Assembly (NCBI RefSeq): GCF_014279875.1
Contig: NZ_CP047952.1
Span: 124,001 to 188,000 of the forward strand
Length of the DNA: 64,000 nt
Origin: Synechococcus sp. MEDNS5
Lineage (GTDB): Bacteria > Cyanobacteriota > Cyanobacteriia > PCC-6307 > Cyanobiaceae
Reading direction: 5' to 3'
Below the pieces are notes generated by a model, which made no database searches, had not been told where the DNA came from, and saw nothing but the letters and a program-made list of their open reading frames with translations. Both the position numbers and the translations under genes were made by a program. Below are positions 30,864-50,102 of this stretch, one piece after another (position 1 is the stretch's first letter; each line of letters starts with the position of its first letter).

Positions 30864-32288
<1,425 letters not shown>

Positions 32289-32379
32289 GGCTGATTCGCC
32301 GCCTCGCGGCATCACGTTGCGGCGAGCCTATGACTCGAGGAGCGATCTCTAAAGTTCACCAGATTCTGCCGTCCGTCCA

Positions 32380-33330
32380 ATGACGACCCGTGATGGTGTG
32401 TGGGTGGTGGCGGCCTGTTTCAACGAAGAGGCCGTGATCGTCCGCTTCATCGAGCGGGTGCTGGCTGTGCCTGGGGTGGACCAGCTGGTGTTGATCGACG
32501 ATGGCTCCAGGGATGCCACCGTGAATCAGATCCGCGGTTTTTTAACGCAGCGCCGCAACCTGGGCGTAGGGGTCCCGGTCACCCTGCTGGAACTCACCCG
32601 CAATTTCGGCAAGGAAGCCGCCATGCTCGCGGGGTTGGATCACGTGCGCGAGCGCTGTTCCGCCGCCGTGTTGATTGACTCCGACCTTCAGCATCCGCCC
32701 GAGTTGATCGAGGCCATGGTGGCGGAATGGCGTGCTGGGGCCGAGGTGGTGACGGCGGTGCGCGATGACCGCGACCAGGAGTCGCGCTTGAAGGTGCTGA
32801 GCGCCTCTTGGTTTTATCGAGTGTTCAATAAGGTTGTTGACTCCATCCAGCTGCAGGAAGGGGCTGGTGATTTCCGTTTGCTTGATGCCCCGGTTGTGGA
32901 GGCCTTCACGCAATTGCGCGAATCAAGCCGCTTTTCCAAAGGGTTATTGCCCTGGACGGGCTATCGCAGTGTGGAGTTGCCCTATCAACGGGTGAGCCGG
33001 GTTGGAGGTTCCACCTCCTGGAGCCCGCTCAAATTGTTTGGCTATGCCTTTGATGGCATCTTCTCTTTCTCAGTGCTGCCCCTGAAGGTCTGGACCGGAC
33101 TTGGTGTTTTGGTGTCCGGTTTCAGCCTTCTCTATGCCTTGATTCTGTCCCTGCGCACGGCTTTGGTGGGCCGCGACGTGCCGGGTTATGCCTCACTGAT
33201 GGTCGCCGTGTTGTTTCTCGGCGGAATTCAGTTGATCGGCATTGGGGTGCTCGGCGACTACATCGGCCGCATTTATGTGGAGTCGAAAGCCCGGCCCCAC
33301 TACTTCATTCGCTCCATTGATCAGGGATGA
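32380..33330 (+). CDS. GT2 glycosyltransferase with two C-terminal TM helices (ArnC/GtrB/DPM1-like)
   Basis: A 316-residue membrane-anchored GT-A enzyme. The catalytic domain has VVAACFNEEAVIVRFIERVL, LVLIDDGSRDAT, LTRNFGKEAAMLAGLDH and the metal-binding VLIDSDLQHPPELIE. DFRLLDAPVVEAF and RFSKGLLPWTGYRS match the ArnC/GtrB subgroup. Two hydrophobic helices follow (about residues 228-255 and 270-292), then IGRIYVESKARPHY, the usual tail of this subgroup. Family members move a sugar from a nucleotide to undecaprenyl phosphate on the cytoplasmic face. It is convergent with, and overlaps by 26 nt, a GtrA-YdjC fusion likely to act on its product. The sugar is not readable from sequence. Confidence 0.9.
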   Translation: MTTRDGVWVVAACFNEEAVIVRFIERVLAVPGVDQLVLIDDGSRDATVNQIRGFLTQRRNLGVGVPVTLLELTRNFGKEAAMLAGLDHVRERCSAAVLIDSDLQHPPELIEAMVAEWRAGAEVVTAVRDDRDQESRLKVLSASWFYRVFNKVVDSIQLQEGAGDFRLLDAPVVEAFTQLRESSRFSKGLLPWTGYRSVELPYQRVSRVGGSTSWSPLKLFGYAFDGIFSFSVLPLKVWTGLGVLVSGFSLLYALILSLRTALVGRDVPGYASLMVAVLFLGGIQLIGIGVLGDYIGRIYVESKARPHYFIRSIDQG

Positions 33331-34609
33331 TCGTGAGTGCTTCAAGCGCACGCCACTCTTTCTGCCTCCAGGCGGATCGCGCAAACGCTTGGGAAACCGT
33401 GAAGCCCGCATCGGCGAGATCTTGATTCAGAGGAGCACTGGGATGGGCGAGCAATAGTGGTGCTGTGTTTTGGGCTTTGGCTTCCAGGCTGCTGAGTTCC
33501 CTCCAGGCAGCCAGAAGCGTTGCATCTGCCATGTGCCCGGTGAAGAGCACGCCAGCAAACCCCCCGTTGGTGGTCAGTCCGCACCGCTGAATCTTTCTCT
33601 GAGCTCGCCAGCTGAGCAGCTGCAAAATCAGCCATTTGAGCAGCCCTGCATCACGGCAGGCTTGCCACCAGCAACGCAAGGGAAGTCCGGTGGGCAAGGA
33701 CTCATCGGTGCTGCGCAGCCAGGTGATGCCAGCGGTGCCTGCCCGGTCGAGAACAGCGTCGAGCACCACAGGCACAAGGTGGATGTGTTGATGGCCATCC
33801 AGGGCGATGGAACTGTTCCCCCGCAAGGCCTGGAACTGTTGGATCTGTGCATCGATCTCGAGTTCCAGCTGGGAGACAACCCTCACCCGTCTGGGATGTC
33901 GGCGCGGCAGCAGAGACAGCAGCAGCCATTGTCCGAAGGAACAGTGGAGATGTCCTTGGCGATCCACCAGATCGGGAATCAGCTCGGGGGCAGCGCTGGG
34001 TGGTCCTTCGGTGAGGCAGAGATGGAGACAGAGCTGCAGGGTTGGTCTGTGCTCAGCCAGTGAAAGCCAGGCTTCGGCGCCTTCCGAGGCGGCCGGACCA
34101 TTCACCAATAGGCTGGTGCCATCCAGCTGTCCTGCCTCAGCCAGGGCCACGATTGCAGTGTTCGCGGCGTGGCTGAGGCCAAGATCATCGGCATGTCGGA
34201 GCGGCGCAACACGTCCGCGTTGGCGCCGGCGCAGACTGAAGCGAGCGGCTCGCGACCAGATCAGGGCATTGAGCACAGTTGGCGTGAAGACCAGCACACC
34301 AACCTCAGCGCTCGTGGGGAGCCATGCGGGTAATGCCAGCGGAAGCACACTGCAGACGGCGAGGTTGATCGTGTACTGGAGAATCAACCAACGGCGGGCG
34401 AAATGCTGGCCGCCTGTTTCGGTGCGGAATGTGAAGCGGGAGTGGCCGAGATAGCTAGCGAAGGACGCGGCAAGAAAAGCCAAGGGATTGGCGATCCACA
34501 ACGGCATTCCCAATCCCAAAACCAGGAGTGTTATTGCGTGTACGGCTGCAGCTCCAACACCGACCAGTCCGTACAGGCTGAGACGGGTACTGAAAGACCT
34601 CAGGATCAT
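33305..34609 (-). CDS. GtrA-type flippase fused to a YdjC/ChbG-type deacetylase
   Basis: A 434-residue two-domain protein. Residues 1 to about 127 form a GtrA-like domain with four hydrophobic helices (RLSLYGLVGVGAAAVHAITL, NPLAFLAASFASYLGHSRFT, a third near 78-95, and FTPTVLNALIWSRAARFSLR). A short basic linker leads to a YdjC/ChbG domain from about residue 138. It contains HADDLGLSHAANTA (Asp141-Asp142), LQLCLHLCLTEGP (His196) and DGHQHIHLVPVV (His273-His277), the metal and catalytic positions of this carbohydrate deacetylase family. GtrA proteins flip polyprenyl-phosphate sugars; YdjC proteins N-deacetylate amino sugars, including, for Francisella NaxD, an undecaprenyl-phosphate GalNAc. 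The fusion suggests deacetylation coupled to flipping. The partner GT2 is convergent. Confidence 0.86.
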   Translation of the reverse strand: MILRSFSTRLSLYGLVGVGAAAVHAITLLVLGLGMPLWIANPLAFLAASFASYLGHSRFTFRTETGGQHFARRWLILQYTINLAVCSVLPLALPAWLPTSAEVGVLVFTPTVLNALIWSRAARFSLRRRQRGRVAPLRHADDLGLSHAANTAIVALAEAGQLDGTSLLVNGPAASEGAEAWLSLAEHRPTLQLCLHLCLTEGPPSAAPELIPDLVDRQGHLHCSFGQWLLLSLLPRRHPRRVRVVSQLELEIDAQIQQFQALRGNSSIALDGHQHIHLVPVVLDAVLDRAGTAGITWLRSTDESLPTGLPLRCWWQACRDAGLLKWLILQLLSWRAQRKIQRCGLTTNGGFAGVLFTGHMADATLLAAWRELSSLEAKAQNTAPLLLAHPSAPLNQDLADAGFTVSQAFARSAWRQKEWRALEALTIIPDQWSE

Positions 34610-34680: not shown

Positions 34681-35133
34681 GTGAACGCAGCGGACGCCGT
34701 GAACAGCGTGGCATTGGTTCAGGCTCTCGCCTCGACGGTGACGCTTGTGAAGCAGCGTTTCCCTGCCGCTCGCGCCAATCTCAGCCCCTGGAGGGACGAC
34801 CCTCAGACCCGCGATTGGCTCGAGGAGGAAACCCTTGATCTCTCCTTTCATTTCCCTGGCTGGAGCCCACGCCTGGAGTGCCGCAGTTTGTTGTTGCAGC
34901 TGCGTCTGAAGGGTGTTGCCAAAGGCAACTCCCAGTCACCGCCCGAGCTTCTCGGAATATTGATGCGCGGCATGACCTTCGATGGTGAACGCTGGCGCTT
35001 GGCCACGATGGGTGAGTGGCAGCCGGAAGGGTCCCATTTGCCTCAGCGAGAGCAGGTGCGTCAGTTGCGCGAGATCTGTCGTGATCTTTTTGCTCTTTTT
35101 GAGGTTTCCCAGGCGTCCGACACGGCGGCGTAA
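34681..35133 (+). CDS. Hypothetical protein upstream of heme oxygenase
   Basis: A 150-residue soluble protein, GTG start at 34681, with no signal peptide or membrane helix. It looks like an alpha/beta protein: PWRDDPQTRDWLEEETLD, LDLSFHFPGWSPRLECRSL, LEC.. LLLQLRLKG and GMTFDGERWRLATMGEW. I recognise it only as the kind of conserved cyanobacterial hypothetical often found in such housekeeping blocks. It is divergent from the GtrA-YdjC gene and 79 nt upstream of ho1 on the same strand. Confidence 0.65.
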   Translation: MNAADAVNSVALVQALASTVTLVKQRFPAARANLSPWRDDPQTRDWLEEETLDLSFHFPGWSPRLECRSLLLQLRLKGVAKGNSQSPPELLGILMRGMTFDGERWRLATMGEWQPEGSHLPQREQVRQLREICRDLFALFEVSQASDTAA

Positions 35134-35212
35134 GTAACCCTTCGCAACCCTTTGGGCCTTGATCACGGAATTCGCTTTTAAGGTTACTTCCACTGATCAC
35201 GTGCTTCTTCCC

Positions 35213-35926
35213 ATGCCCGTCGCTCTCGCTTCCCAGCTCCGTGAAGGAACGAAGAAGTCGCACACCATGGCTGAAAACACCGGGTTTGTGAGTTGCTTCC
35301 TGAAAGGAGTTGTGGACAAGGGCAGTTACCGCACGCTGGTGGCTGATCTCTACTTCGTGTATGCCGCCATGGAAGAAGAGATGGCAGGTCTGGCCGAGCA
35401 CCCCGTGATCGCACCCATCGCATTCAGCGAACTCAACCGCCGTGAGGCCCTCGAGCAGGATCTGGCGTTCTATTACGGAGCTGATTGGCTCCAGCAGATC
35501 AAGGCCACCCCTGCGGCTGAGGTTTATGTGGAGCGAATCCGCCAGGTCGCCAAGGAGTCTCCCGAGCTGCTGGTGGGCCATCACTACACCCGCTACCTGG
35601 GTGATCTCTCCGGTGGGCAGATTCTCAAGAATATTGCTCAAAAGGCGATGAACCTTGGCGAAAACGATGGGCTGCACTTTTATTCGTTCCCTGAGATTGC
35701 CGACGAGAAAGCCTTCAAAACCACCTACCGTGCCGCGATGGACCAGTTGCCGATTGACCAGCCCATGGCCGATCGGATGGTGGAGGAGGCCAACCATGCC
35801 TTCCACCTCAACATGAAGATGTTCCAGGAGCTTGAGGGCAACCTGGTGGCAGCGATCGGCAAGGTTCTTTTCGGCTTCCTCACCCGCCGTCAGCGCGCCG
35901 GCAGTACTGAGGCTGTGGCGGCTTGA
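35213..35926 (+). CDS. ho1: Heme oxygenase (biliverdin-forming)
   Basis: A 237-residue enzyme that opens heme to biliverdin using reduced ferredoxin, the first step to phycobilin pigments. The N-terminus ALASQLREGTKKSHTMAENT contains the proximal heme ligand His; LVADLYFVYAAMEEEM is a conserved helix and HHYTRYLGDLSGGQILKN is the distal-helix signature with its flexible glycines. The start is placed at ATG 35213 (MPVALASQL), the normal cyanobacterial start; the longer frame from 35159 adds 18 non-conserved residues. It supports a phycobilisome or phytochrome-bearing phototroph. The stop overlaps a TTG start of the next gene. Confidence 0.95.
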   Translation: MPVALASQLREGTKKSHTMAENTGFVSCFLKGVVDKGSYRTLVADLYFVYAAMEEEMAGLAEHPVIAPIAFSELNRREALEQDLAFYYGADWLQQIKATPAAEVYVERIRQVAKESPELLVGHHYTRYLGDLSGGQILKNIAQKAMNLGENDGLHFYSFPEIADEKAFKTTYRAAMDQLPIDQPMADRMVEEANHAFHLNMKMFQELEGNLVAAIGKVLFGFLTRRQRAGSTEAVAA

Positions 35927-44746: not shown

Positions 44747-45615
44747 TGGCTGCTCGCAAATTGCTGCTGATTCGAGGCTTGGGCCACAGCGGCACAACGA
44801 TTCTGGATCTGGCTCTGGGGGCTCATCCTCAGATCACGGGCCTTGGCGAGGCGGTGCGGTTGCTTGAAAAGCCTGCCCCAGAAGATGGTCATCGTGGTCC
44901 GGCTCAGTTGCGAGGCGATCTGCGTCATCAGCGCCACTGCACCTGCGGTTTGGTTGCTGATGCTTGTCCGGTGTGGGGGCCCATGCTGCGTTGGCTGCCG
45001 GATCATGACGATCAACCGTTGCCGCAGAAGCTCAAGCGCTTGGTGTCAGAACTTGAACCTACCGGTGTTCTCTCAAGTCAAGAGTCCTGGGTGGTGGAGT
45101 CTTATCAAGACGATTTCGTGTTGCCCTTTCTTGAGGATCCCGCTCTGGAGATTCGGGTTCTTCATCTCACTCGCGATGTGCGCAGTTGGGTTCATTCCCG
45201 ATCTCGCGATGGCCGTGAACGGGGCCGTTGGCTTCCGGGATTACAGCCTCTATTTCGCTGGTGGCGTCTCAGTGCCCGCCATGAACGACAATTAAAGCGT
45301 TGCGGAAAGCCTGTGTTTCGGCTCGGTTATGAGGAGCTAGCACTGGAGCCAGAGGCCAGTTTGCGAAGGCTCTGTGCCTGGCTGGGTCTCGACTTTGCCC
45401 CCGAAATGTTGCAACCGGTGCTGCAATCAGGAAGTCATATTTTGGCCGGTAATCGGGTGCGTTTTGATCTTGATCGTGGTCGTGCCATCCAGTACGACTC
45501 TGCTTGGATGCAGGTGGGGAGTGGGGTGGCCCAATTGGCCCTTGCCTGGCCTGCACTGGCCGATCTCAATCAGCGGTTGGTTTATTCCGGTCGAGCCAGC
45601 AGAGGCCAGCGATAA
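44746..45615 (+). CDS. Sulfotransferase
   Basis: A 289-residue P-loop sulfotransferase. The 5'-phosphosulfate-binding loop is IRGLGHSGTTILDLAL, and the 3'-phosphate site is LHLTRDVRSWVHSRS; GYEELALEPEASLRRL is the conserved late helix. Such enzymes transfer sulfate from PAPS to a carbohydrate. It starts on the stop of the preceding glycosyltransferase (TGATG), so the product is probably a sulfated glycan. Its 3' end overlaps a convergent membrane-protein gene by 34 nt. Confidence 0.85.
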   Translation: MAARKLLLIRGLGHSGTTILDLALGAHPQITGLGEAVRLLEKPAPEDGHRGPAQLRGDLRHQRHCTCGLVADACPVWGPMLRWLPDHDDQPLPQKLKRLVSELEPTGVLSSQESWVVESYQDDFVLPFLEDPALEIRVLHLTRDVRSWVHSRSRDGRERGRWLPGLQPLFRWWRLSARHERQLKRCGKPVFRLGYEELALEPEASLRRLCAWLGLDFAPEMLQPVLQSGSHILAGNRVRFDLDRGRAIQYDSAWMQVGSGVAQLALAWPALADLNQRLVYSGRASRGQR

Positions 45616-47396
45616 ATTCTCCCATTGCTGACTCTGGGGTTGAAGGTGTAGAGGAGCTCAAGACGGCTGACGTCAACCCCATATTTTTTTAGTTTGTTGC
45701 CGGACCCAATGTCTAGAAAAAAGTCGCCTGGTTGCGGTTTATAAATTTGCTTTCGATTGCGACCTTCTAGAATTTTGTATTCTTTTTTTTCTGGGTCAAG
45801 ATAAACAAGGCGGTCGAACGGCAGCTTCTTGATTGTGTCTGAATGTTTGAACCAGGACTTAGTGAAAATCAGGTTGACGGGCTCACCTTTGCGGCGTGCC
45901 TTGCGTGCGAATGCGTCAGCTTGATCGAGCGTGGCTCGCCACGAATTCTGGGTTTCGTGGATGTCGCTCCAGCGGCTGATGAATGTTTGGGCAAAGCGAT
46001 GCTCGATGGCCAGGATCAGGCCGCTGGTAAAAATGGCTAGGCCGTTAATCGCTGCTTGTGGCCAGTGCTTCTGAAGTCGTGGCTCTAGCCAAGTGCTCCA
46101 CAGAAAAAGAAGATCCAGTAGGGCAACCCACTGCACTGGTAAGGCCATATAACTGGTGCTCTTGAAGCCCACCAAGGCGAAGAGGGCGAAGCTGTAGAGC
46201 AAGGCTGAAATGTTGAGGGAGTCGATCAGGTGCAGTCGGATTGTTCTGCGGCCCAACAACACTGCGCGGCCAAGGATGAAGGCCGAGAGCCAGGCGGTGC
46301 GCAGATCAAACTCGAAGGTGGAGAAGCGCAGGCTGGCGTCGTAGCTAGCTTCGCCGAGATACAGGCTGGGCAGCACGCTTAGCGCAAGTAATGACGCGAT
46401 CCAAAGCGGTATGAGGCCGATCAGCATCGTTTCCAGCTGATAGCTGTCCCACCATGGTTCTGGGACTTTTTGTGGCCCGTGATTGTTGGTGGGCTGATTG
46501 CCCAGTGAGCCTGCAAGCAGCGTCACGACTGCTGGAGTAACGAAGAGAAGAATGGCGGTGTCTTTGGTGAAGGATCCCAGCAGGGCAGCTGCTAAGGCAA
46601 TGAGCCCGTCGCGCTGTTGACGGTCGTGTTGGTAGCGGTCGTAAGACAGTGCAAAAACAGCCAGCAACAGGGTGAGCAGCCGCTCGCTGTAGATGAACTG
46701 GAAATAGTTGTATGCGGCTGAAGGAGTGAACAGATAGATCAGGCAAGCGATCCAGGTCAGGCTGGTGGTGTTGACCCTGATGGCGAACCTCTTGATGAGT
46801 TGAATCGCGATCGCAATGGTTGCAAACAGCTCAACAGCACTGACGGCAGACCAGACCTTCACGTATGGCGTCAGCCAGCTGAGGATATGCAGGTCTTGAT
46901 GGGAGAGAGGGAAGAATCGAAAATCGTTGCGTCCCATGGACTCGCTGATGAACGAGTCCCGCAATGAAAAATTGGAGAGAAGATGCCCTTGGTTGACGTC
47001 GTCGTACCAGGTCAGGATTTCTTTGTAGAACCAGCTGCTTTCATGGATCATCACCAGTGCATAGCTGACCAGTAATGCACTGGGCAGGGGGTGGCGACGT
47101 ATAGCCCGGAGGGTTGTTTTTAATGGGCTTCCCCACTGGAAGGGAGCTGATTTGGCTAGAAAGGCAATGCTGACGAGGAGAACGGCGATGAACAGGCCGT
47201 GTCCCCAGTCGTTGTAAGTCTCAAGGAGTTGAGATCCCTGAGATGAGAGTGGAGCTGGCAGAAGTTCTCTGTTTTGGCTGACCCAGTAGATCGCGATCAG
47301 GGTCAGGAGGCAGACGATCCCGGAGGCGATGCAGAGGTTGAGCCAATAGCGCTTGATCAGGGCAGGCAGTTTCGGGGGACGTAAGGCAGCATCCAT
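45582..47396 (-). CDS. Polytopic membrane protein, GT-C-like, paralogue of the next gene upstream
   Basis: A 604-residue protein with about 11 hydrophobic helices and a soluble C-terminal part of about 120 residues. The start is placed at ATG 47396 (MDAALRPPKLP), one base after the upstream gene's stop. The first large external loop contains HESSWFYKEILTWYDDVN, then SLRDSFISESMGRNDFRFFP and HQDLHILSW; the acidic pair and aromatic residues recall GT-C glycosyltransferases that use polyprenyl-linked donors. The C-terminal segment has NLIFTKSWF and ends VSNGRIYRW. It shares these blocks with the adjacent 598-residue protein. The family is not recognised; GT-C activity is inferred. Confidence 0.72.
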   Translation of the reverse strand: MDAALRPPKLPALIKRYWLNLCIASGIVCLLTLIAIYWVSQNRELLPAPLSSQGSQLLETYNDWGHGLFIAVLLVSIAFLAKSAPFQWGSPLKTTLRAIRRHPLPSALLVSYALVMIHESSWFYKEILTWYDDVNQGHLLSNFSLRDSFISESMGRNDFRFFPLSHQDLHILSWLTPYVKVWSAVSAVELFATIAIAIQLIKRFAIRVNTTSLTWIACLIYLFTPSAAYNYFQFIYSERLLTLLLAVFALSYDRYQHDRQQRDGLIALAAALLGSFTKDTAILLFVTPAVVTLLAGSLGNQPTNNHGPQKVPEPWWDSYQLETMLIGLIPLWIASLLALSVLPSLYLGEASYDASLRFSTFEFDLRTAWLSAFILGRAVLLGRRTIRLHLIDSLNISALLYSFALFALVGFKSTSYMALPVQWVALLDLLFLWSTWLEPRLQKHWPQAAINGLAIFTSGLILAIEHRFAQTFISRWSDIHETQNSWRATLDQADAFARKARRKGEPVNLIFTKSWFKHSDTIKKLPFDRLVYLDPEKKEYKILEGRNRKQIYKPQPGDFFLDIGSGNKLKKYGVDVSRLELLYTFNPRVSNGRIYRWPLLARPE

Positions 47397-47397
47397 G

Positions 47398-50102
<2,705 letters not shown>

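Follow-up and report, generated by a model that had tools for sequence, protein, structure and literature searches.

A conserved GtrA-YdjC fusion protein and its GtrB-type glycosyltransferase partner in picocyanobacteria, a putative polyprenyl-phosphate amino-sugar module

The 64,000-nucleotide stretch of DNA analysed here (the window; positions 124,001 to 188,000 of contig NZ_CP047952.1, renumbered from its first letter) is part of the one-contig, 2.44 Mb genome of Synechococcus sp. MEDNS5 and carries two convergent genes that may together form a module for the synthesis and export of a polyprenyl-phosphate-linked amino sugar. The first (32380-33330, plus strand) encodes a family 2 glycosyltransferase (GT2) of 316 amino acids (aa), a polyprenyl-phosphate glycosyltransferase of the GtrB type (PF00535, 83 bits). 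The second (33305-34609, minus strand) encodes a 434-aa protein in which two Pfam domains, a GtrA-like membrane domain and a YdjC/ChbG-type deacetylase, are joined in one uninterrupted open reading frame (ORF). The 3' ends of the two genes overlap by 26 nucleotides (nt; 33305-33330). This arrangement, together with an amino-sugar function, had been proposed in an earlier reading made from the letters and their translations (the sequence-only reading), and the ORFs do lie, converge and overlap as it described.

The GtrA-like domain spans residues 1-127 of the fusion protein (34229-34609, minus strand), with four proposed membrane helices and a match to PF04138 (GtrA_DPMS_TM) at residues 12-105 (44 bits, cut-off 26.1). 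The deacetylase domain occupies residues 138-424 (33338-34198, minus strand) and matches PF04794 (YdjC) at residues 138-422 (143 bits, cut-off 29.7), so that both domains indeed sit on one intact chain. Its best solved relative is ChbG (7vi8), with which the first six active-site motifs align, the ADD, histidine and DxHxHxH motifs among them. The metal residues named in the sequence-only reading (D141, D142, H196 and H273-H277) are all present in the window protein, and the loss among homologues that could have spoken against a working enzyme is not seen. In an alignment of 36 fusions, comprising 35 of the 46 fusion genomes described below plus Synechococcus WH7803 (11 of these 47 known fusions were left out), residues D141, D142, H196, D271, H273, H277 and H389 are invariant at identities down to 42%, and H275 is kept in 35 sequences; we take these residues to have the metal-binding and catalytic roles usual in the YdjC family. 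Many GtrA residues are kept as strictly, among them Y13, G17, N41, H56, W74, Q78, N82, N114 and W118, invariant in the 36 sequences, and R73, kept in 35. Across the same sequences, the mean number of lysine plus arginine residues in the non-membrane segments (before helix 1, loops 1 to 3 and after helix 4, with borders set by hand) is 3.1, 0, 4.4, 0.2 and 5.1, respectively. By the positive-inside rule, both ends of the protein are predicted to be cytosolic, which would place the YdjC domain on the face where the newly made lipid appears, as needed for deacetylation before flipping. An AlphaFold model contains four long helices ahead of the YdjC part, at the poor mean confidence (pLDDT) of 55 obtained from three input sequences. 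The YdjC part is neither a plain HpnK nor a plain ChbG, since it misses the NCBIfam cut-offs of both (101.3 bits vs 232.6 and 66.1 bits vs 227, respectively).

Among the 201 genomes of the family, 56 have some match to the fusion protein, over both domains in 46 of them and over one domain only in the other 10. Recurrence of the full architecture in 46 genomes rules out a frameshift or an assembly join between two separate genes, an artefact against which the sequence-only reading had warned. Named holders include Synechococcus WH7803 (84% identity), the closest named relative by this protein, and Prochlorococcus AG-363-O06 (44%). In one of the 46 (G120), the match ends at residue 358 and contains three internal stop codons; in six other fusion rows, the one TGA reported is simply where the gene terminates. 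A phylum-wide search returned a match to the fusion in 172 of 386 genomes; outside its own family, the matches listed begin at residue 109 or later, except in genome G528, where the match spans residues 22-373 (25% identity) with an internal stop. This is not a broken fusion, as G528 has two separate adjacent genes, GtrA then YdjC. For other phyla, a pattern scan of genome contigs, with a reach limited to close relatives, does not establish absence. The possibility that plasmids or phages spread the fusion was rejected, because none of the 26 plasmid and two phage records that matched covers 80% of the query; viral contigs provided two partial YdjC relatives. In a tree of 15 fused YdjC domains, 10 from f31 (a distant family of the same phylum) and seven from family f7, the fused domains formed one group (support 100/99) and those of f31 grouped separately, so that a single fusion event would account for these 15 domains.

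The fusion is inherited together with the GT2. An orthologue of the latter (at least 55% identity) is found in 46 of the 201 genomes, 45 of which also have the fusion (Fisher p about 1e-42, a value not corrected for ancestry); a check of this co-occurrence had been suggested in the sequence-only reading. There is one exception each way: G052 has a fusion and no GT2 orthologue, and G131 a GT2 orthologue and no fusion. All 47 genomes tested (the 46 fusion genomes and G131) have the pair in convergent orientation. The match ends, which understate overlaps such as the 26 nt of the window, lie between an overlap of 20 nt and a gap of 141 nt in 46 of these genomes; in the other, the gap is 1.2 kb. 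In G123, which has no fusion, a GT2 fragment with stops is all that lies between the two usual neighbours of the module (L063:7982-8280); this genome also gave no DUF2079 match (see below).

Among solved structures, the GT2 is closest to the Synechocystis GtrB sll0501 (270 bits, residues 16-311), with ArnC well behind (119 bits); within the proposed 'ArnC/GtrB subgroup' it is therefore better assigned to GtrB. The match to the NCBIfam model of PpgS, an enzyme of the mycobacterial polyprenyl-phosphate N-acetylgalactosamine (GalNAc) pathway, is weak and falls far below the cut-off (39.9 bits vs 370). In a GT2 tree built from 29 fusion-linked sequences, 19 others, 10 from f31 and sll0501 (L108, L111 and L112 were left out), 28 of the fusion-linked GT2s and that of G131 formed one group (100/100), with the GtrA-only relatives and sll0501 outside it; the GT2 of G052 is placed far off on a very long branch. 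The fusion-linked enzymes also share a distinctive residue. At position 105 (codon 32692-32694, plus strand), equivalent to Asp99 of GtrB, all 29 fusion-linked rows have His, even that of the unrelated G052 GT2, and so does the GT2 of G131, whereas all 18 other rows of the family and sll0501 have Asp. The DADLQD motif of the glucose-specific GtrB, with its Asp99, is thus replaced by D(S/A)DLQHPP in fusion-linked GT2s, that of the window included, and two further differences from sll0501 are Ala to Pro191 and Gln to Ser197. Asp99 is predicted, in a passage of PMC5526996, to contact the O3 of the sugar. The change from Asp to His points to an altered sugar site in the fusion-linked GT2s, although it does not indicate which sugar is accepted. 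Since the f31 enzymes introduced next lack it, His105 does not mark deacetylase-linked GT2s in general.

Unfused sets of the same genes exist in family f31. We sampled 23 of its more than 100 YdjC matches, mostly among the higher-scoring rows, and found that a GT2 about 30% identical to that of the window adjoins the free-standing YdjC gene in 22 of them (one gene away in G528); at the remaining locus, L126, the contig ends there. The YdjC ORF of L119 runs past the fetched stretch and is known from the phylum search. Two of these loci also contain GtrA. In G528 (L137:883-3186), the GtrA gene (57 bits, Pfam) ends 3 nt before YdjC and the GT2 is divergent from both; in G290 (L121:1538-3659), a GtrA-like gene related to that of G528 (E 2e-38) is convergent with YdjC and overlaps its end, with the GT2 on the other side of YdjC. 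A GtrA profile built from the fusions found no f31 GtrA and missed even that of G528, which, used as a query, then found that of L121. GtrA, YdjC and a GT2 thus come together in two lineages, with GtrA and YdjC joined in one and all three as separate genes in the other, and we regard this as the strongest evidence gathered here that the three would work together.

Judged from its conservation, active site and gene order, the fusion is a real, conserved protein that works with a GtrB-type GT2. The amino-sugar function put forward in the sequence-only reading is partly supported: the fusion is conserved, its active site is intact, the GT2 is tied to it by co-occurrence and gene order, and the charge bias places YdjC in the cytosol; deacetylation and flipping themselves are what we infer from these features. 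We therefore lean towards a two-gene polyprenyl-phosphate amino-sugar module, which is probable rather than firmly established. The GT2 would load polyprenyl phosphate at the cytosolic face with an N-acetylated sugar taken from a nucleotide donor, as the chemistry of its family suggests, the acetylated nature of the donor being proposed mainly because a deacetylase is its partner. Kept at the membrane by GtrA and predicted to face the cytosol, the YdjC domain would then remove the acetyl group to yield a polyprenyl-phosphate amino sugar, which the GtrA domain would move to the periplasmic side. The fusion would in this way merge deacetylation and hand-over to the flippase into one step. Finally, a transferase of the GT-C class encoded elsewhere in the genome, perhaps of the DUF2079 or PMT type given the genome associations, would attach the amino sugar to a glycan or lipid of the cell surface.

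DUF2079, which we take to be a GT-C kind of protein, occurs in 44 of the 46 genomes that have the fusion and in 62 of the 155 that do not. Of the fusion genomes, it is missing from G019, which is 65% complete, and from G081, in which the fusion adjoins two PMT-type genes. At least nine of the 46 genomes, from three genera (G024, G052, G064, G097, G119, G134, G154, G165 and G177), have a DUF2079 gene no more than about 3 kb from the fusion, and DUF2079 also adjoins related GT2s with no visible YdjC in five of 19 regions (L097, L105, L106, L109 and L110). The genome of the window has one DUF2079 gene, near C1:2128922-2130181 and adjoining a PMT-type gene. PMT_2 and PMT themselves were discarded as informative partners because they occur in all 31 genomes of the genus, with or without the fusion. 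Inside the window, two adjacent, similar-looking proteins of about 600 aa (45585-49194, minus strand) that have six or more hydrophobic stretches apiece and match no Pfam family are other possible candidates for the final transferase, as membrane glycosyltransferases of a new kind. Close to the PMT and DUF2079 genes of this genome there are also three successive ORFs of 603-671 aa (L114:8809-14895) with MKLFQQ near their starts, two of which contain MKLFQQLLVAPAALGLLAP; presumably these are porins.

Several observations weigh against the amino-sugar module. Some concern the sugar. The nearest characterised relative of the GT2, sll0501, is called glucose-specific in a passage of its structure paper (PMC4728340). 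The f31 GT2s, which also accompany a YdjC protein, have Gln (9/10) or Asp (1/10) at position 105, and PfDPMS, a mannose enzyme, has His there too (DADLQH; PMC5526996), so that His105 gives no pointer to an N-acetyl sugar. According to part of a review (PMC4515613), the lipopolysaccharides (LPS) of marine Synechococcus WH8102 and CC9311 contain mostly glucose with some glucosamine and galacturonic acid; as lipid A itself holds glucosamine, this record neither supports nor weakens the model. In another explanation, the GT2 would use a neutral sugar, GtrA would be an anchor only, and YdjC would act on another substrate, for instance a hopanoid-linked or cell-wall amino sugar, in the manner of HpnK or ChbG. 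The resemblance of the GT2 to a glucose enzyme fits such a division of labour, and HpnK and ChbG are indeed the NCBIfam matches of the YdjC part, both below cut-off. However, the fusion and the GT2 are inherited together almost one to one and stay paired on the genome, and YdjC is also paired with a GT2 in f31. All of this links the deacetylase to what the GT2 makes (no search was aimed at hopanoid genes), and we consider this explanation distinctly improbable.

Other points against the amino-sugar module concern the bond between its parts. In G052, the fusion adjoins a different, non-orthologous GT2 (29% identical), near which (L057:6261-13628) we also noticed a 454-aa protein weakly similar to PIG-V mannosyltransferase, below cut-off, and a DUF2079 protein. 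G131 (L061:7024-8370) retains GtrA and the GT2 ORF yet has no YdjC: its 132-aa GtrA protein ends in KKEWTSAQQL, matching the C-terminal end of the fusions of its relatives (QKEWTSAQQL), and its YdjC part has therefore been lost in frame. Taken with the sll0501-type GT2, this case might suggest an ordinary GtrAB glucosylation system in which YdjC is an inactive leftover tail. That is very improbable, as YdjC is retained in 46 genomes and its seven active-site residues do not vary among the 36 sequences; moreover, the G131 GT2 is the only one of 59 aligned rows without the (F/Y)R(L/M) motif, so that the case looks like decay. By eye, this GT2 appears to be a hybrid, its first part resembling that of the window and its tail those of its own genus.

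The unfused genes provide further objections. No GtrA gene was found close by in 21 of the 23 f31 loci, and no GT2 match was found within about 1.5 kb of seven free YdjC loci of family f7 (L038-L043 and L045). In the 21 f31 loci another flippase would have to serve the YdjC-GT2 pair, at least as far as the stretch read extends, which leads to the idea that the GtrA domain only anchors the deacetylase in the membrane or docks it onto the GT2, the product being flipped by another protein; the family name of PF04138, which covers both GtrA and the membrane domain of DPMS, is in keeping with it. Nevertheless, GtrA-domain residues are as invariant as catalytic ones, more than a plain anchor should need, and relatives of the window GT2 in the same family (L066, at 558-2045, L099, L101 and L102) carry GtrA as a gene of its own, with no YdjC close by, in the usual GtrAB way. 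Above all, in G528 and G290 a free-standing GtrA accompanies YdjC where no covalent anchor is possible, which slightly raises the amino-sugar module and lowers the docking explanation to one that we find unlikely. The final step of the amino-sugar module also has its difficulties: besides the module, none of the 17 window proteins scanned with Pfam matched a GT-C family, and the DUF2079 association, uncorrected for ancestry, stands beside 62 genomes that have DUF2079 and no fusion.

A bolder version of the amino-sugar module, which we offer tentatively and as less likely than not, is that of a coupled machine. The GtrA domain would accept only the free amino sugar released by its own YdjC domain, Prochlorococcus and marine Synechococcus would thereby export a cationic polyprenyl-phosphate hexosamine, DUF2079 proteins would act as the GT-C enzymes that decorate the surface with it, and the f31 sets would represent an older three-gene form.

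The proposed module resembles several known systems. In Francisella, undecaprenyl-phosphate GalNAc is reportedly deacetylated to galactosamine by a pathway in which NaxD and FlmF are separate proteins; a YdjC-family deacetylase reportedly acts there on a GT2-made polyprenyl-phosphate N-acetylhexosamine, whereas here the deacetylase is fused to GtrA. ChbG and HpnK have the YdjC fold family and the metal residues in common with the fusion, which differs from them in its sub-threshold NCBIfam scores, its link to the membrane and its GT2 partner. The GtrA-GtrB-Gtr(type) systems of serotype conversion in Shigella and Salmonella likewise combine a GtrB-type GT2 with a GtrA domain; in the window, by contrast, the deacetylase is on the GtrA chain, and the two genes converge and lack a recognised GT-C gene beside them, a GT-C transferase being the finishing enzyme expected in GtrAB systems according to a passage of PMC11127046. 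The module is therefore best seen as a variation on the GtrAB and NaxD kind. The fusion itself was not found described in the open-licence literature searched, in which a query for GtrA and ChbG gave an unrelated Brucella regulator (judged by title); queries for DUF2079 and for a cyanobacterial GtrA polyprenyl flippase found nothing, and one for a YdjC deacetylase in Synechococcus nothing on topic by title. Marine picocyanobacteria are among the most abundant photosynthetic cells, and, if the proposal is true, they would decorate their surface with an amino sugar by means of a flippase that contains its own deacetylase. It would also provide a handle on the role of small GtrA proteins, since the attached enzyme would report the membrane face and the lipid, as well as on the function of DUF2079 proteins. 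Moreover, the presence, decay and domain loss of the module among close relatives could be compared with surface chemistry and phage sensitivity.

The module has conserved neighbours. To its left in the window lies an isocitrate dehydrogenase-family gene (30864-32315, minus strand; PF00180), which is found next to the intact or decayed module in 16 of 22 compared neighbourhoods, including those of WH7803 and Prochlorococcus AG-363-O06. To its right are genes for a 150-aa protein with no Pfam match (34681-35133, plus strand) and a heme oxygenase (35159-35926, plus strand; Pfam), identified as neighbours by gene order in relatives and found on the other side of the module in most of these 16 neighbourhoods; neither is seen in L050, and L051 shows only part of the heme oxygenase. 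Further to the right, the window contains glycan genes encoding family 4 glycosyltransferases, an ABC transporter and a sulfotransferase (Pfam). These were not found in L002 (Prochlorococcus) nor in L053-L055 (genomes of 1.4-1.9 Mb), and the module is therefore independent of that cluster. In G024, G052, G064 and G081, the module occupies other locations, where membrane proteins of the DUF2079 or PMT families are encoded beside it or nearby.

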